Positions 56,343 to 64,000 of a stretch of DNA of 64,000 nt are shown here, in pieces. Source of the stretch: Cystobacter ferrugineus. GTDB lineage: Bacteria > Myxococcota > Myxococcia > Myxococcales > Myxococcaceae. Both the position numbers and the translations under genes were made by a program. Numbering within the stretch: position 1 is the stretch's first letter; each line of letters opens with the position of its first letter. The stretch is from contig NZ_MPIN01000009.1 in NCBI RefSeq assembly GCF_001887355.1, positions 248,001 through 312,000 on the forward strand, written 5' to 3'. The notes under the pieces are model-generated. The model was given only the letters and a program-made list of their open reading frames with translations. It had not been told where the DNA came from and ran no database searches.

Positions 56343-58289
56343 ATGGATGCCGAGCAGGACATGCCGGGGGGTTTCTCGCTTCCCTCGTGGCGGCCCACCC
56401 TCCCCCCCTCGGCGGCGTGGGACACCCACCGAGCATGCTGGTGGTTGATGTTGCCCGAGCCCCCCGGGCAGGAGGGAATCGGGGCCCGTCTGAAGCAGCG
56501 CCTCCAGGAGGCCGGTCAGCGCGTCATCCTGCTCACCCCCGGCCCCCGCCTCGCCCAGTTCGGTGAACACCACTGGTCGCTCCAGCCCGCGGAGGCGACG
56601 GACTACGATCTGCTGCTGCGGTTGCTGCTCCCCCAGGGGCTCGCGCCCGATCGGGTGCTACACCTCTGGAGCCTCCTTCCCCCACCCCCCCCCGGAGAGC
56701 TGGAGGCATCCTTCGAGCCGGCCCACGAAAGGGGCTTCCAGTCCCTCCTGTTCCTGCTCCAGGCCCTCGGACGCCAGGAGCCCCGGCCCGTGTCGCTCGT
56801 GGTGCTCACCCACCGCATGCAGGCCCTGGGCGAGGAGACGCCCTGCCCCGAACGGGCCACGGTGCTCGGACCGGTGCGCGCCGCGTCCCACGAATCCCCG
56901 CACCTCGCCTGCCGCGCGGTGGATGTGAATCTCCCGGCGCCCGGGAGCTGGCAGGAGGCCCGGCTCGTCGACTGGCTCCTGTCCGAGTGCGCCGAGGCCT
57001 CGTCCGGCGAGGACGTCGTGTACCGCGGCCAGCAGCGCCACGTGCGCGCCTTCTCGCCCATCGAGCTTCCCCCGGCCTCCGCGCGCGTGCCCGGCCCGTT
57101 GTCCCCGCGCGAGCGGGGGGTCTACCTCGTGCTCGGAGGCTTCGGCACCCTCGGCTCCAGCCACGCCGAGGCCCTCGCGCGGCACGTCCGGGCGCGGCTC
57201 GTGCTCGTCAGCCGCTCCTTGATGCCCGAGCGCGTCCACTGGGATGACTGGCTGGCGAACCATGACGCGAGCGATCCCCTCTCGCGGCGGATCCGCCAGG
57301 TGCGAGCACTCGAGGCCCTGGGCTCCGAGGTGCGGGTGATCAGCGCGGACGTGGGGGATCGGGATCAGCTCCGGACCGCCATCGAGGAGACGCTCGCCCA
57401 CTTCGGCGCGCTCCATGGGGTGGTGTTCTGCGTGGGCTCGGTGAACCCCTCGCTCTCGCGCTCCCTCGCGGACCTGACGCCCGAGGACGTGCGCGTCCTC
57501 TTCCAGAGCCGGGTGCACGGCCTGTACGCGCTCGAGGAGGTGCTGAGGGACCGGCCGCTCGACTTCTGCCTGCTGGCCTCGTCGCTCGTGGCGGTGCGCG
57601 GGCGGGGGGCGAGCGCCGCCTATAGCGCGGCCATGAACTTCATGGATGCGTTCGTCCTGCGCCAGGCGCAGCGCTCGCCGGTGCCGTGGGTGAGCGTGGA
57701 CTGGGACGGCTGGACCAGCGACGCGGACGTGCTCCCGTCGACCGTGGCCCCCCTGGGCTCGCGGCCCATCACGGCGGCCGAGGGCGCCGAGCTGTTCACC
57801 GACGTGCTGTCGCTCGGTGGTGTGAACCGGGTGGCCGTCACCCCGCGAGACCCATTCTCCCCCGCCACGCCCCAGCCCCCGCCACGCCCCCCGGAGCACA
57901 ACACGCCCAGGGCCGAGCCCGCCGCCTCCGACCCGAGTGCCGCGCGCAGAGCATCCCGTCCCCCCTTGGAGACCGCCTATGTGGCCCCGCGCGACGCGGT
58001 GGAGGAGTCCATCGCGAAGGTGTGGGAGTCGATGCTGGGCATCACCGGGGTAGGCATCTACGACAACTTCTTCGAGCTGGGGGGCGACTGGCGGACCGGG
58101 ATGACGGTGATGACCCAGGTGCGTGAGAAGACCGGGGTCCCCCTGCCACCCGTGAGCCTCCAGGAAGGGCCGACGGTGGAGTTGCTGGCCCGGCGGCTCC
58201 GGGCCGCCTCCGAGGGGCTTCCAGACACGTCCTTCGATCGACCCCTCGTGCCCTCCTCCGCCGTGAAGCCCTCCGGCGAGGATGACTGA
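56343..58289 (+). CDS. orphan ketoreductase-carrier protein (PKS-derived) with altered active sites
   Basis: The 648-residue protein is a polyketide-synthase fragment without KS or AT. Residues about 20-245 are the structural half of a KR domain (ends VVYRGQQRHVRAF), about 255-500 the catalytic half, and about 548-622 an acyl-carrier domain. NADPH binding is kept (VLGGFGTLGSSHAE, then VLVSRS). Catalytic Ser414 and Tyr427 are present, but the Asn four residues after Tyr is Met431, with Asn at 432. The carrier loop reads FFELGGDWRTG: Trp583 replaces the serine that carries phosphopantetheine, so the carrier cannot be loaded by the normal route. A scaffold or regulatory role is possible. A CysQ-type phosphatase gene follows 10 bp after its stop. 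Confidence 0.82.
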   Translation: MDAEQDMPGGFSLPSWRPTLPPSAAWDTHRACWWLMLPEPPGQEGIGARLKQRLQEAGQRVILLTPGPRLAQFGEHHWSLQPAEATDYDLLLRLLLPQGLAPDRVLHLWSLLPPPPPGELEASFEPAHERGFQSLLFLLQALGRQEPRPVSLVVLTHRMQALGEETPCPERATVLGPVRAASHESPHLACRAVDVNLPAPGSWQEARLVDWLLSECAEASSGEDVVYRGQQRHVRAFSPIELPPASARVPGPLSPRERGVYLVLGGFGTLGSSHAEALARHVRARLVLVSRSLMPERVHWDDWLANHDASDPLSRRIRQVRALEALGSEVRVISADVGDRDQLRTAIEETLAHFGALHGVVFCVGSVNPSLSRSLADLTPEDVRVLFQSRVHGLYALEEVLRDRPLDFCLLASSLVAVRGRGASAAYSAAMNFMDAFVLRQAQRSPVPWVSVDWDGWTSDADVLPSTVAPLGSRPITAAEGAELFTDVLSLGGVNRVAVTPRDPFSPATPQPPPRPPEHNTPRAEPAASDPSAARRASRPPLETAYVAPRDAVEESIAKVWESMLGITGVGIYDNFFELGGDWRTGMTVMTQVREKTGVPLPPVSLQEGPTVELLARRLRAASEGLPDTSFDRPLVPSSAVKPSGEDD

Positions 58290-58299
58290 GGGAATGCGC

Positions 58300-59112
58300 A
58301 TGAGCCGGACAGAGGAAGCGTTGGTGGCCGCGGTGTGCGACGTGGCCCGTGAGGCGGGACGCGCCACGCTGCGGTTTCATGGAGGGCCGCTGGACGTCGA
58401 GCGCAAGGCGGACGACTCTCCACTCACGGCGGCGGACAAGGCCGCTCACACCCTCATCGTCGGAGCCCTGCGGCGGCTGACACCCGAGCTGCCGGTGCTG
58501 TCCGAGGAATCCGACGAGCGGGAGCTGACCGAGCGGCGCCAGTGGAGCAACTACTGGTTGGTGGATCCGCTCGATGGAACCAAGGAGTTCATCAAGGGCA
58601 GCGGCGAGTTCACCGTCAACATCGCCCTCATCTCCGGGACTCAGCCCGTGCTGGGCGTGGTGCATGTGCCGGTCACGGGCGTGACGTACTGGGGACGGCA
58701 GGGCCGGGGCGCCTTCCGGGCGGACGCGGGCCAGGCACCAGTGGAGCTGCACACGCGGCCGGCGGATCCCGAGCGGCTGGTCATCGTGGCGAGCCGGGAT
58801 CACGCGGGGCCACGCGTGGAGGCGCTGCTCGCGCGGCTGCCCACCGCGAAGACGGCCAACATGGGCAGCTCGCTCAAGTTCTGCCTCATCGCGGAGGGCA
58901 AGGCGGACTTCTACCCCCGGTTCCAACCCACCAGCGAGTGGGACACGGCGGCGGCGCAGTGCGTGCTGGAGGCCGCGGGGGGCGCGGTGACGGACACCGG
59001 AGGCCGCCGGCTGGCCTACAACAAGGAACAGCTCATCAACCCGTCCTTCCTCGCCTTCGGGGACGCGCGCCAGGACTGGCGGGCGCTGCTGGAGGAACGA
59101 GGCGACGGGTAG
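58300..59112 (+). CDS. cysQ: CysQ-type 3'(2'),5'-bisphosphate nucleotidase
   Basis: The 270-residue protein is an inositol-monophosphatase-fold enzyme of the CysQ branch. It has ESDERE, the metal site WLVDPLDGTKEFIKGSGEFT near residue 88, and TSEWDTAAAQCVLEAAGG near 205. CysQ hydrolyses PAP (3'-phosphoadenosine 5'-phosphate) to AMP. PAP is made by sulfate reduction, sulfotransferases and by loading of carrier proteins with phosphopantetheine. GAGGGA six bases before ATG 58300 gives the start; ATG 58282 overlaps the previous gene. It follows the ketoreductase-carrier gene directly, so the two may be linked by PAP turnover. Confidence 0.9.
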   Translation: MSRTEEALVAAVCDVAREAGRATLRFHGGPLDVERKADDSPLTAADKAAHTLIVGALRRLTPELPVLSEESDERELTERRQWSNYWLVDPLDGTKEFIKGSGEFTVNIALISGTQPVLGVVHVPVTGVTYWGRQGRGAFRADAGQAPVELHTRPADPERLVIVASRDHAGPRVEALLARLPTAKTANMGSSLKFCLIAEGKADFYPRFQPTSEWDTAAAQCVLEAAGGAVTDTGGRRLAYNKEQLINPSFLAFGDARQDWRALLEERGDG

Positions 59113-59124
59113 TCGCCCGGTGCA

Positions 59125-59427
59125 TCACGGGCACTGCGCCATCCCAGTGTCGAGCCGCCCCGCCCTCACGAGCAAACCGAGCGCGATCGCGCGGCCATGG
59201 ACGAGGCCTTGCGACTCGAGTCTGTCCACCATGGCATCGAATGACGCATCCTTGTCGAGCTCCACACAGGACGGCCCACTTCCCCCATCCGTCCTCCCGC
59301 CTCCGCCACCCGTCGGATACTCGGAACCGTCCTCGACCTTGGTGCCAGTCTGCCTCACGGCATGATCAGCACACGCGGACAGGCAGACACCAAGGGCCAA
59401 CACCAGGAGAGTCCAGCTTCCCGTCAT
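59125..59427 (-). CDS. small lipoprotein, last gene of the unknown secreted cluster
   Basis: The 100-residue product has a lipoprotein leader (LLVLALGVCLSAC, lipidated Cys in LSAC). The mature part starts with a Gly/Thr-rich linker (EYPTGGGGGRTDGGSGPSC), then a short helix-like domain (ELDKDASFDAMVDRLESQG) and a second cysteine near the end, so one disulfide is possible. ATG 59427 has GGGAG upstream. It lies 48 bp after the 455-residue secreted protein gene on the same strand. It ends 12 bp from the convergent cysQ gene. Confidence 0.6.
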   Translation of the reverse strand: MTGSWTLLVLALGVCLSACADHAVRQTGTKVEDGSEYPTGGGGGRTDGGSGPSCVELDKDASFDAMVDRLESQGLVHGRAIALGLLVRAGRLDTGMAQCP

Positions 59428-59475
59428 TTCTCCCACTCCTTGTGGGTTCTTCACTTGGGGTCGCGGTTCTCCAGC

Positions 59476-60843
59476 TCATGGATTCAGGAAAGGATCGAGC
59501 CCGGTGTGTTCGTTCTGAAGCCGTGTCAGGAAAACCTCGATACTCCTGGTAATCTTTGCCTTCTCCTGCGCGGATGTGAAGTAACCGTTGATGAAAATTT
59601 CCACATCGCTCCGATATCGGACGACCGGGTTGTAACCTGGCACATCCTTTCCAAGGAGTTTCAGGTTCTCGACGTGGACATCGTCGAGAGTCACCTTCCG
59701 CGCCAATGGGTCATACGTGAAACCCAGGTGGACGTTGTAGCTCACGGGGACACGGTACTTGCGCCCGCGCGTCGAGAGCAGGAACTGGGTCTCCCCCCGC
59801 ATGTGAGAACCTGACGCGAGCGCGATCTTCCGTCCCCTCCAGGACAGGGCATTTCCCTGGATGTCGAAGCGCCAGCGATGCAGGGCCTCCGCCGGATTGA
59901 CGAGCGGAAGAGCGGACCGGATGTTCCGCACGGAGTTCTCGAGCACGAACTCCTGCTCCAGCTTCTGGCGAAGCCTGTCGAAGTCGAACGTCGAGTTGAG
60001 CTGACGGAGACCGAAATGCGCTCCCTCCACCAGGAAACCCTCTCCGTCCTCAAAGGACGCTTCCGAGTAGAGCCGCGGCCCCAACCCCATGATCGCCTCA
60101 CCCAGGGAAGCGTGCGAGGTGCTGGAGTATCGGCGGGCGATGAGACAGGCGTCCCGATGCCACTCGATTCCCACCTGCTCGCAATTTCCACCTGCCCAGT
60201 ACCGTGCCCTGACCGTGTTGGAGAAGGCCTCCGAGAGATACGGCGTCGACGTCATCATGAGCTGCGTGGCATAGGCACGGAGGTAGACGTAGTGCGCCCT
60301 GGGCAGATTCTCCCCAGGATTCATCCGTGCGGCCCGCGGGTTGATGAGCGGAATGCGCTTGATGTCCGTGTCACACTGCGGGCTCACCGCGGACCCAAGA
60401 CAGAGCACCCGGGCGTCCACTGTACCCAGCGAGACCGGGAAGATCAGTGCCTCACGGATTTGACCGACGTCATAGTCCCTGTTGAAGCGAAGCCTGACTG
60501 TCACCCTGTTCACGCCGTATTCGAACCGGATGTCCACCAGCGCCGGATTCGCCTGGGTGAAGAAAGACGACGAAAGCTCAACACGGGTGGGAAGCACATC
60601 CACCTTCACCACTTCCAGGTCATAGAATCCCTCCCCATGGCGCGCCCGGAGTAGACCGACGGACTCGCTCCAATTGGTGACGAACTGAATACTTGCCTCG
60701 ATCCGCGAGCCGTTCTCCCTCACTGAAATGAACTGCCGGCCGTCCTCCTCCGCCACGACCAGGGTGTTGGGGAGGACGACCAGGGGATCCGCGAGGGCAC
60801 TCGGCGGAAGGCTCAGCAACAATGCAACCATGAGGCTGCGCAT
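59476..60843 (-). CDS. secreted protein of unknown family (455 residues)
   Basis: AAGGAG precedes ATG 60843, which opens a signal peptide (MRSLMVALLLSLPPSALA). The mature protein is mostly beta strands in the first 200 residues (FISVRENGSRIEASIQFVTN, VDIRFEYGVNRVTVRLRF), has four cysteines in two close pairs (RVLCLGSAVSPQC and GGNCEQVGIEWHRDAC) consistent with periplasmic disulfides, and helical parts near residue 300 (FDFDRLRQKLEQEFVLE). A second beta region ends in VEIFINGYFTSAQEKAKI. I know no family. It begins 10 bp after the 132-residue gene upstream, so it is in a tight operon. Confidence 0.8.
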   Translation of the reverse strand: MRSLMVALLLSLPPSALADPLVVLPNTLVVAEEDGRQFISVRENGSRIEASIQFVTNWSESVGLLRARHGEGFYDLEVVKVDVLPTRVELSSSFFTQANPALVDIRFEYGVNRVTVRLRFNRDYDVGQIREALIFPVSLGTVDARVLCLGSAVSPQCDTDIKRIPLINPRAARMNPGENLPRAHYVYLRAYATQLMMTSTPYLSEAFSNTVRARYWAGGNCEQVGIEWHRDACLIARRYSSTSHASLGEAIMGLGPRLYSEASFEDGEGFLVEGAHFGLRQLNSTFDFDRLRQKLEQEFVLENSVRNIRSALPLVNPAEALHRWRFDIQGNALSWRGRKIALASGSHMRGETQFLLSTRGRKYRVPVSYNVHLGFTYDPLARKVTLDDVHVENLKLLGKDVPGYNPVVRYRSDVEIFINGYFTSAQEKAKITRSIEVFLTRLQNEHTGLDPFLNP

Positions 60844-60853
60844 CAAGGGCTCC

Positions 60854-61252
60854 TTATATCTCCTCCGGAAGCAGGAGGACTTCCCCGTCGGGAAGGATGG
60901 TGACAAGGGTCCCTCCCTCGTAGGTGTATTGCGTGGTGCCATCGTCGAAGACACGATGGAGTTGAAGCTTGTCGAGTTCGAGCTTGAGCTGCCGCTTCTT
61001 TCCCAACACCAGGAATCGGTCCGTCTCGCTCGAGGGCCCCTCCCGCCTGACCACGGCCTCCTCCGCACGGGGAGGAGGCAGGCGCTGCGCCTGCCCCGCC
61101 TTGGGCGTCCTCGCCTGTCGCGACGAACGCGACTCCTCCACCCTCCCGGCGGGCGCGTTTCCGTCAGACACCCACGCATCCCTCCAGGACATTCCGACGA
61201 GCACGAGGATTCCCAATGGCCCGACGATGAGCCCCAAGCGCTTCTTCATCAT
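60854..61252 (-). CDS. small membrane-anchored protein of unknown family (132 residues)
   Basis: GGAG six bases upstream supports ATG 61252 (a second ATG follows at once). A single N-terminal helix (LGLIVGPLGILVLVGMSW) anchors the protein. A linker rich in Arg, Ser and Glu follows (residues 25-80, with VEESRSSRQARTPKAG). The C-terminal 50 residues form a compact beta-like domain (LKLELDKLQLHRVFDDG, then TLVTILPDGEVLLLPEEI). No match known. It lies 22 bp after the 348-residue gene and 10 bp before the 455-residue gene. Confidence 0.7.
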   Translation of the reverse strand: MMKKRLGLIVGPLGILVLVGMSWRDAWVSDGNAPAGRVEESRSSRQARTPKAGQAQRLPPPRAEEAVVRREGPSSETDRFLVLGKKRQLKLELDKLQLHRVFDDGTTQYTYEGGTLVTILPDGEVLLLPEEI

Positions 61253-61274
61253 GACTGGCTCCTTCCTCGACACT

Positions 61275-62321
61275 TCACGGCCTCACGAGGAACCCGAACG
61301 ATCCCACCGCGTCGTTGGCCAGCGTGAATCTCACGAGGCGCGAGCCCACATCCTCTCCGGCTCCGCAACGGTATACCTGCTGCCCATCGACGAGCTGGAA
61401 GCACGCTTCCAGAATGACGTTCACGTGACGCAACCCGGTCGCGAGTTCATTCGTGAGCACACCTCGATCGAGATAGTCCGCCACGTCGTCGCTCTCCGCC
61501 CAGTGACGAAGCGCGCTCAGCGCCAGGAATGCCGGCTTCGCGTTCTCCGCCTCCACACCCGTCACGAGCGGAAAGCTCTCGAAATAATCCCGCGGGGTGG
61601 CCATCGCCTTGACTCCGCTCAGCCAGGCGATGATGTACTCCTGCCGGGGAACCTGGACGAGCACGCTGCCTCGCGCGGCATTGAAGCCGGACCTGCTCGG
61701 ATCGAGCAATGTCGCGAAATTCGCATAGCTCGGGGGGAGGGTCCCATTGAGCCAGCGTGTGACGCCCGTATAGAGAAACGTACTGTTGTCGTCCGGGATC
61801 TCGAACTGCTCGAAACGCGGAGCGCACTGGACGTACTCCTGCCGGACGTATTGAGCGAAAAGCGGAGCGTAGACGGTCGCGAGCTCCTGCCGGGCTTCAG
61901 CCGTTCCCGCACTCAAGTTTCCGGCGAGGACCGTCCGGTTCGGGACATCGACGTCCGCTGGCGGAAGGGACAGGTACCAGGCCTGGAAGCAGGACAGGTA
62001 GGCCCGCTGCGGCGACAGGACATGACGGAATTCAATGGCGAGCTGAAGCCCATCGAGCACTTCCACGTTCATGTTCACGAGGGGACTCGATGGAACGGAG
62101 ACACCACCCGCCGCGAACGTATTCAACTGCTTCTGCAAGGAGCGCTTCAGCTCCGGAGAGAGACTGTCCGTCACCTCGGCTCCAGCATGCGAGACATGCA
62201 ACCGGTAGACGTTCTCCGAACTCGCTGTACGCCGGAGCTTTCCGATGTACTCGGGGAGTTCAGCGGCCAATGCAGCCGCCGGAAACGCGATCACGGCGAT
62301 CATCACCCAATGCAAGCGCAT
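61275..62321 (-). CDS. secreted protein of unknown family (348 residues)
   Basis: ATG 62321 is preceded by GGAG and begins a signal peptide (MIAVIAFPAAALA). The mature protein has helix-rich segments (VTDSLSPELKRSLQKQLNTF and RQEYIIAWLSGVKAMATP) and strands (PLVNMNVEVLDGLQLAIEF). Four cysteines (LSCF, VQCA, EACF, YRCG) would allow two disulfides. It has no catalytic motif or membrane segment that I recognise. A strong intergenic hairpin lies between it and the partial gene upstream. It continues the tight minus-strand operon. Confidence 0.75.
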   Translation of the reverse strand: MRLHWVMIAVIAFPAAALAAELPEYIGKLRRTASSENVYRLHVSHAGAEVTDSLSPELKRSLQKQLNTFAAGGVSVPSSPLVNMNVEVLDGLQLAIEFRHVLSPQRAYLSCFQAWYLSLPPADVDVPNRTVLAGNLSAGTAEARQELATVYAPLFAQYVRQEYVQCAPRFEQFEIPDDNSTFLYTGVTRWLNGTLPPSYANFATLLDPSRSGFNAARGSVLVQVPRQEYIIAWLSGVKAMATPRDYFESFPLVTGVEAENAKPAFLALSALRHWAESDDVADYLDRGVLTNELATGLRHVNVILEACFQLVDGQQVYRCGAGEDVGSRLVRFTLANDAVGSFGFLVRP

Positions 62322-62359
62322 GTTCTTCTCCAAGAAGGTTGAGCCCGACACAAAGCACT

Positions 62360-62385
62360 TGGCCAGCCCTCGAAAGGGCTGGCCA
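62360..62385 (-). terminator. perfect 11-bp hairpin with CGAA-type loop between two secreted-protein genes
   Basis: TGGCCAGCCCT at 62360-62370 pairs with AGGGCTGGCCA at 62375-62385 around a four-base loop (CGAA on the plus strand, TTCG on the transcript). An 11-bp perfect stem with a UUCG-like loop is very stable. It lies 33-58 bp after the upstream stop and 39 bp before the next start. There is no T-run after it, so it may be a partial terminator or an mRNA-stability element that sets the ratio of the two proteins. Confidence 0.6.
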
Positions 62386-62417
62386 CCAGACGGCATTCGA
62401 TTCTCAATGGCCGTGGG

Positions 62418-64000
62418 TCAGATTTCGTCCGGGAGCGAGACCTCGGGAGGCGGCGGCGGGGGGTCCTCCGACTCGATGTTTCCCTGGTCGTTCACGGGGG
62501 CTTCCTGGTTGCGGTGCTCCGCGCACTCTGGCGTCGTATCGTTCTCGTCGCACAGATAGGAATCCCTTGCTTCCGAATAGGCATCCTCGACAGGCTGGCT
62601 CGTGGCCCACTCCGATGCGGTGCAGGCAAGGTACCGCTTCAGCCCAGGGTTCCAGGCCAGACACATGTCGGCCGTCCCCAGCTCGACGTTGATCTGCTTG
62701 TTCTGATCGATGATGATCTCCTGCTCGAACTTCACCGTGTTCAAGTGCTGGATGTTCTGGGTGTTGGTGTGCCAGTAGAAGCGCGCCGCATTGGAGAAGG
62801 CTCCGACGATCGTCCCGATGTACCCGAGGGTGCGCGCGCCCTCGAAGACACTGGACCATCCGCTGTTGGCACCCTGGTGACGGTGTGCCGCGATGTCCGC
62901 CTGCACCTTGTCCCAATAGGTCAGCTTCTCGCTATAGGACAGGGAGACGCGCTCGAAGTACAGGTTCGTGAAGCGCTCTTGCAGCGCCACCAGGGCCTGC
63001 GCGTAGGCGAGCTGCGCCGCGCTGCCATCACCCCCCTCGACATGGACCAGGCACGGTTTGTTCGTCTCCGCCACCGACTTCGCCACCATGGAGGAATAGA
63101 TGTCATCGTTGAAGATGACCAATCCATCCTTGATGTCCGTGCGCCCCTGGACGGACCAGCCCGTGGTGAAATCACACGAGAGCCTTGCCCTCAACGCGGG
63201 CGGGCGAACCGTCAGTTGGGCCTTGAGCCCCACGGGCACGACGATGGGGGGTGGAGCGGAGCTGAGCTTCTCGGCACCGTCGAGCGTCAGGTCGAAGTTG
63301 TACGTCCCCGAGGAGCCATCCCCGCTCCCCTTCATGGAACGGAACAGCGGTACGCCGATGCGCTGTTGATCATTGCTGCCGGTCATGGTCTCCGCGAGCG
63401 AGAAGTACGAGATGCTCTGGATGGGGAGCTTGACCAGGCTCACCTGGTACAGCCCCAGCTCGGCCCGGACCTGCTTGTAGAACTTCAGGTATTCGATCTC
63501 CTCCGGTGTGAAGCCCGAATAGACGTTGCCGGAGAAGATGCCACCATTGGACTGGCTGAGATCTCCAAGCTGCTTCGTGCGCACCGACACGTCCTTGACG
63601 TCAGAGGACGAGAGAGGAAACCCGGACAAGCCGAAGAGATCCGCCATGCGGCCGTACTTGGCGTCCAGCACGTAGGCGGGCAGTTCGCTCTCGTTGTTCT
63701 GGGCGCGGGTCTTGAGTGCCTCCAACTCCGCCTGGAGCTTGGCCCGGGCGGCGTTGATGGTATCGCGCTCCTGTTGGGTCAACTTCGGATCCTGGAGCTT
63801 GGCCGTGAGGACCGAGTAGGCCCTCCGGATCGTCATGAACTCCTCGGTGGACAGCAGGCTGATTTCCTTGCTGATGGTGTCGATCTCGCTGCGGCGGGCG
63901 ATGGCCGCGCTGTTCGCGACCACGGTCGCCGCTCCCGCGGGGTTGGGTGACACCCGGAACGTGGGCGAGTAATAGAACTTCGTCGTATCCGCGTGATCCT
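62418..64000 (-). CDS. large unknown exported-cluster protein, partial (start beyond window)
   Basis: The frame is open to the window edge, so the start lies beyond 64000; about 527 codons are visible. The N-terminal visible part reads FYYSPTFRVSPNPAGAAT. A helical, coiled-coil-like region follows (TQQERDTINAARAKLQAELE), then alpha/beta segments, a possible membrane or amphipathic helix (LGYIGTIVGAFSNAARFYW), and a C-terminal tail of Asn, Gln, Pro and acidic residues with a run of six prolines. At least six cysteines are present, two of them in an MCLAWNPGLKRYLAC segment. No family known. It heads the visible part of the operon running to 59125. Confidence 0.75.
   Translation of the reverse strand, partial: DHADTTKFYYSPTFRVSPNPAGAATVVANSAAIARRSEIDTISKEISLLSTEEFMTIRRAYSVLTAKLQDPKLTQQERDTINAARAKLQAELEALKTRAQNNESELPAYVLDAKYGRMADLFGLSGFPLSSSDVKDVSVRTKQLGDLSQSNGGIFSGNVYSGFTPEEIEYLKFYKQVRAELGLYQVSLVKLPIQSISYFSLAETMTGSNDQQRIGVPLFRSMKGSGDGSSGTYNFDLTLDGAEKLSSAPPPIVVPVGLKAQLTVRPPALRARLSCDFTTGWSVQGRTDIKDGLVIFNDDIYSSMVAKSVAETNKPCLVHVEGGDGSAAQLAYAQALVALQERFTNLYFERVSLSYSEKLTYWDKVQADIAAHRHQGANSGWSSVFEGARTLGYIGTIVGAFSNAARFYWHTNTQNIQHLNTVKFEQEIIIDQNKQINVELGTADMCLAWNPGLKRYLACTASEWATSQPVEDAYSEARDSYLCDENDTTPECAEHRNQEAPVNDQGNIESEDPPPPPPEVSLPDEI

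Follow-up and report, generated by a model that had tools for sequence, protein, structure and literature searches.

A genus-restricted operon for five predicted exported proteins in a variable chromosomal slot of Cystobacter ferrugineus

Myxobacteria are predators. Lineage-restricted operons of exported proteins in variable slots are common in large bacterial genomes, and genomic islands and hot spots beside tRNA genes are a known general kind of locus. Among described systems, the SitBAI modules encode lipoprotein toxins that are moved by outer-membrane exchange. The sitA loci are described as being often found near mobile elements and likely gained horizontally, and SitB as exported but lacking relatives (PMC5562445). 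A second point of comparison is provided by cargo clusters of the type VI secretion system (T6SS), with DUF2169, PAAR-like, AHH nuclease, and Imm11 domains. Here, we analyzed a 64,000-nucleotide stretch of the 12.05-Mb, 42-contig genome of C. ferrugineus (contig NZ_MPIN01000009.1; G000:C9:248001-312000), referred to as the window, at the end of which lies a set of five minus-strand genes. We report that these genes are under purifying selection and that they form an accessory operon, carried as cargo in a variable slot whose edges are cysQ and a tRNA-Met gene.

The five genes extend from window-equivalent position 64178 down to 59125, with gaps of 96, 22, 10, and 48 nucleotides (nt) from gene 1 to gene 5. 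The coordinates, strand, and gaps given in a preliminary description of this DNA were reproduced exactly. That description had seen gene 1 as a fragment cut by the window edge. Reading past position 64000 into the host contig (stretch L002) added 178 nt, which completed gene 1 at 64178 with 586 amino acids (aa) and a signal sequence and made it the first gene of the set. Upstream, the next open reading frames (ORFs) with a gene-like pattern of guanine-plus-cytosine (GC) content by codon position lie on the plus strand, beginning with one at L002:6779. Overlapping minus-strand ORFs upstream of gene 1 (for example, 103 aa at L002:6649-6960) lack this pattern and fall outside the stretch that is conserved in other genomes; we therefore consider the five genes to be the supported extent of the operon. 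Purine-rich sequences resembling ribosome-binding sites were seen by eye ahead of the chosen starts. Gene 2 could alternatively start at 62396, giving 373 aa in a frame that is open in all three genomes carrying the operon, but the signal sequence begins at the later start and would be buried inside the longer protein, and we preferred the later start for this reason.

Export signals were judged by eye and with a hydropathy script; no signal predictor was used. The type I signals of genes 1, 2, and 4 end in A-L-A. The gene 3 product has a single N-terminal hydrophobic segment following a positively charged start, and a cleavage-like site was not seen. In gene 4, a second, fairly hydrophobic stretch (residues 132 to 150; mean hydropathy, 1.54) could be a membrane segment. 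All five products are apparently exported or membrane anchored. Genes 1, 2, and 4 encode 6, 4, and 4 cysteines, respectively, and all 14 are invariant across the three genomes. The proposal that these genes form a five-gene operon of exported proteins is borne out by their spacing, their shared order, and these sequence signals.

To follow the distribution of the operon, we searched 195 Myxococcota genomes with profiles for genes 1, 2, and 4 and with single sequences for genes 3 and 5. Strong matches for each of the five proteins were present in 3 of the 195, all from one genus: the genome of the window (G000) and two others, G091 and G092. Gene 4 searched as a single sequence matched strongly in the same 3 of 195 genomes, and gene 1 searched in this way did so in 3 of 96 genomes of the family. 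All five genes occur in the same order in these three genomes (gene 5 was omitted from ORF lists filtered by codon-position GC content and was recovered in the relatives from plain ORF lists). Identity to the window proteins is 94 to 95% for gene 1, 85 to 88% for gene 2, 84% for gene 3, 85 to 86% for gene 4, and 77 to 84% for gene 5. None of the five has a match in G093, the fourth genome of the genus. Across the other 192 genomes no match was convincing; the remainder, at E values of 0.0006 or weaker, were treated as chance and inspected in part. Rejected in this way were 17 weak profile matches of genes 1, 2, and 4 outside the genus (E, 0.0055 to 0.094) and the weak matches of genes 3 and 5 in the 195 genomes (E, 0.0006 to 0.1). 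Four of the 17 were inspected (L014, L016, L026, and L020), and their surroundings were, by eye, unrelated ordinary proteins, with a helicase-like ORF running opposite the frame of the L020 match. The operon is neither strain specific nor widespread. A gene order shared with other myxobacteria, which the preliminary description had proposed to look for, was found in two further genomes of the genus and no farther.

The location of the operon is the same wherever it occurs. In all four genomes of the genus, cysQ and tRNA-Met(CAT) form the edges of a slot that contains the operon in three genomes and a T6SS-style cluster in one. The operon shares the slot with two plus-strand ORFs in G000 and with about 0.6 kb of further sequence in G091; in G092, it is joined by a SitA5-type toxin gene and by an ORF whose FtsH match is subthreshold. 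The extra cargo of G092 is bracketed by a 115-bp direct repeat (85%) found in that genome only; no search for an integrase was made. The slot of G093 lacks the operon and contains DUF2169, PAAR-like, ketoacyl-synthase, AHH nuclease, and Imm11 matches above cut-off (L036:7226-14351), with Imm49 and HEAT matches below it. Alignment of G000 to G092 and G091 breaks off 400 bp ahead of gene 1, at approximately L002:6578, and starts again near the tRNA at approximately 8272. In G095, from another genus, cysQ has other neighbors, and there is no tRNA gene in the stretch examined. The GC content of the operon is 62.0%, versus 68.9% for window positions 1 to 59000, in which the values of 5-kb stretches lie between 65.3 and 72.3% (mean, 68.6; standard deviation, 1.8).

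The same borders enclose different content, and no match outside the clade is convincing, which marks the operon as accessory cargo of a variable slot. Taken together, the edges and contents of the slot, the narrow distribution, and the low GC content are most simply explained by gain from outside, and the operon was probably acquired horizontally. In its narrow distribution, unusual base composition, tRNA edge, and replacement by other cargo in a relative, the locus resembles tRNA-side genomic islands; it differs from them in that no integrase was seen, although none was searched for, and in that the tRNA end is only a candidate attachment site. The accessory-cargo nature of the operon and its low GC content, together with a conserved hairpin described below, are new beyond the preliminary description.

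Table 1. Positions of the operon genes, the hairpin between genes 1 and 2, and the slot edges
Feature	Position	Strand	Remarks
Gene 1, 586 aa	62418..64000 in the window, on to window-equivalent 64178	-	Type I signal, coiled-coil-like N-terminal part, 6 invariant cysteines, proline-rich tail
Gene 2, 348 aa	61275..62321	-	Type I signal, 4 invariant cysteines
Gene 3, 132 aa	60854..61252	-	N-terminal membrane anchor, proline-rich linker, short C-terminal domain
Gene 4, 455 aa	59476..60843	-	Type I signal, 4 invariant cysteines
Gene 5, 100-aa lipoprotein	59125..59427	-	Lipobox Cys19
Intercistronic hairpin, genes 1/2	62360..62385	-	Perfect 11-bp stem here, 10-bp in two other genomes
cysQ (3'(2'),5'-bisphosphate nucleotidase)	58282..59112	+	Fixed slot edge
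tRNA-Met(CAT)	L002:8484-8559, beyond the window		Other slot edge

If the genes were neutral passengers or chance ORFs, then an accessory slot, a low GC content, and a lack of relatives would be expected. However, all 15 gene copies in the three genomes are intact, and the changes between them are most common at third codon positions. The ratio of nonsynonymous to synonymous substitution rates (dN/dS), computed by the Nei-Gojobori method with our own script, was 0.12 to 0.14 for gene 1, 0.26 to 0.40 for gene 2, 0.24 to 0.37 for gene 3, 0.25 to 0.29 for gene 4, and 0.30 to 0.49 for gene 5; for the neighboring cysQ, of which 270 codons from a later start were counted, it was 0.16 to 0.33. All 15 gene-pair comparisons thus gave values below 0.5, well under 1. 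The excess of third-position changes and the dN/dS range of 0.12 to 0.49 over three genomes support coding, and we regard the idea of neutral or chance frames as barely credible. These results demonstrate that the five genes are under purifying selection.

Of the T6SS-style domains in the G093 slot, none occurs in the five proteins: searches of Pfam and NCBIfam found no PAAR-like, VgrG, or DUF2169 adaptor among them. Signals for export or anchoring are present in each of the five. The likeness to T6SS cargo is one of place, the cysQ/tRNA-Met slot being shared. The likeness to SitBAI modules is that both are accessory cargo encoding exported proteins that include a lipoprotein, and a SitA5-type gene shares the slot in G092. 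That gene (L009:12720-14036, minus strand) encodes a polymorphic toxin lipoprotein scoring 364.7 bits against a cut-off of 160. Yet the operon has five genes rather than two or three, no variable C-terminal domain, and no immunity-like gene, and none of its proteins gained an NCBIfam match, although NCBIfam includes SitA5 and SitA6 models. An undescribed family of toxin-immunity or effector cargo modules, comparable to the cluster that replaces the operon in G093, would account for the slot shared with DUF2169, PAAR-like, AHH, and Imm11 genes and for the adjoining SitA5-type gene. We consider this unlikely: Pfam, NCBIfam, and PADLOC gave no toxin or immunity match, the C termini, which vary in polymorphic toxins, are conserved across the three genomes, and all five products appear to be exported, with none resembling a cytoplasmic immunity protein.

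The preliminary description had placed four of the five proteins in no known family. The lack of known relatives was confirmed, with the count rising to five, as none reached a family cut-off in Pfam or NCBIfam. PHROGs gave no convincing match (best E, 0.096), and PADLOC gave none for any of the five proteins and hence no known anti-phage defense system. Sequences in the PDB yielded nothing for genes 2 and 4 and nothing better than an E value of 0.021 for gene 1. By tblastn, there was no plasmid match for genes 1, 2, and 4 and no phage match for gene 1; when plasmids were searched with gene 1 at E values up to 10, one weak match (E, 0.5) appeared, in response-regulator genes. Pattern-based scans of genome and viral contigs with genes 1 and 4 found no relative, but such scans detect mainly close relatives and may have left out records near the genome of the window. 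Nor are genes 1, 2, and 4 related to one another (hhalign probability, <1%). By these searches, the proteins are new as families. With no member assigned to a known family and the gene order conserved outside the strain, neither of the two outcomes named beforehand as speaking against the proposed system (known families throughout or an order unique to this strain) occurred.

Several subthreshold candidates were treated as chance: five Pfam matches of gene 1, including coiled-coil models; Tcp10_C for gene 3 (E, 0.0034; 17.4 bits versus a cut-off of 36); three PHROGs for gene 1 (E, 0.096 to 0.74); and sulfatase-maturase matches of gene 1 in NCBIfam (E, 0.0051) and the PDB (E, 0.021) that cover the same 83 residues. 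A possible likeness of gene 1 (FYYSP motif; residues approximately 290 to 410) to an unnamed widespread family was dropped, as no relative was found. A search with this gene 1 fragment at E values up to 3 returned no relative, with six loci inspected, and in a search of the four genomes of the genus for an FYYxP DNA pattern, a backwards control pattern was more common than the pattern itself. The genome of the window has six FYYxP sites, of which one is gene 1 and three were inspected in frame; the other two were absent from the orientation that was searched.

The 96-nt gap between genes 1 and 2 contains a hairpin that in G000 has a perfect 11-bp stem and a loop of 4 nt. G091 and G092 differ from G000 in two bases at the loop end, which leaves a perfect 10-bp stem, and the remainder of the hairpin is invariant. 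Compared with 200 shuffled sequences each, the gaps folded with z scores of -2.0, -2.6, and -2.9, with 7, 0, and 2 shuffles as good. Stem length and conservation in all three genomes make this hairpin stand out among terminator-like sites, and we take it to be a putative attenuator or mRNA stabilizer.

What might the five proteins do? We tentatively favor an accessory, genus-restricted operon encoding an exported envelope or surface complex. The products of genes 1, 2, and 4 would leave the cytoplasm by their type I signals and reach an oxidizing compartment, where the conserved cysteines would form disulfides. The N terminus of the gene 3 product would anchor it in the inner membrane, and the gene 5 product would be held by its lipid in a membrane, probably the outer one; these two proteins may be the membrane attachments of a single envelope or cell-surface complex in which all five act jointly, with gene 1 providing the main and most constrained part. 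The hairpin may stabilize gene 1 mRNA or thin read-through, so that gene 1 would be made in excess over genes 2 to 5. The complex might serve contact with prey or rival cells; this is the weakest step, and only the other occupants of the slot point to it.

The three large exported proteins, which are soluble and have cysteines in pairs, are encoded in a slot with toxin-rich alternative cargo in a predatory bacterium. They could instead be separately acting secreted factors directed against prey or rivals through the medium or vesicles, with the lipoprotein and the anchored protein as escorts and no stable complex. We find this doubtful, since no enzyme or toxin family was matched and gene 1 is nearly invariant (dN/dS as above), which is atypical of fast-diversifying attack factors. 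The slow evolution of gene 1, the retention of all five genes in three genomes, and the absence of anything polymorphic would also suit an operon for lineage-specific envelope maintenance or development, unrelated to toxin cargo and placed in a slot that is merely permissive; its absence from G093 and from the other Myxococcota, which implies that it is not needed for their common life style, makes this improbable. A stronger version of the envelope complex, in which five families without known relatives build a new trans-envelope machine (an inner-membrane anchor, three disulfide-bonded exported subunits, and an outer-membrane lipoprotein) that interchanges with T6SS cargo and attacks or recognizes other cells, seems very unlikely to us.

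Several observations weigh against the envelope or surface complex as we have outlined it. No family match in Pfam, NCBIfam, PHROGs, or PADLOC suggests a function, and AlphaFold runs on two single proteins from three-row alignments were unusable (mean predicted local distance difference test scores, 35.4 and 33.4), so that they speak neither for nor against the delivery device suggested in the preliminary description. A scan of the operon region found no sigma-70-type promoter. The eleventh pair of the hairpin is lost without compensation in two genomes, its T-run is poor, and a scan of 6 kb for terminators returned 5 sites versus 3.5 expected, so that the class is not enriched. The case for horizontal gain is indirect, for the two reasons that set the locus apart from tRNA-side islands, and neighboring genes of a variable slot do not necessarily have a common role.

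Other genes in and around the slot were recorded as well. The two plus-strand ORFs of the G000 slot (L002:6779-7876; 174 aa with a cysteine-rich end and 189 aa) are divergent from the operon, have no family match, occur only in G000 among the genomes compared by alignment, and could be a toxin-immunity-like pair. On the far side of cysQ, window positions 56343-58289 (plus strand) encode a stand-alone, 648-aa polyketide-type protein with a KR-prefix domain above cut-off and weaker ketoreductase and carrier-domain matches; the last 8 nt of this gene overlap the annotated start of cysQ, and the gene is missing at this place in G093. Just past tRNA-Met, L002:8739-10283 (plus strand) encodes a 514-aa lipoprotein that matches DUF2380 (27.9 bits versus a cut-off of 26.3) and falls below the cut-off of the SitA6 model TIGR02269 (25.8 versus 85.75 bits); G091 aligns to it in partial pieces only.

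The locus brings to light five unclassified families of apparently exported proteins that are under selection, in a small and defined slot, from cysQ to tRNA-Met, where the operon swaps with recognizable toxin and immunity cargo. Should the operon do the same job as the cargo found in its place in G093, a new system for contact or predation would be indicated. Otherwise, it would be one of the many lineage-specific envelope operons of large myxobacterial genomes.

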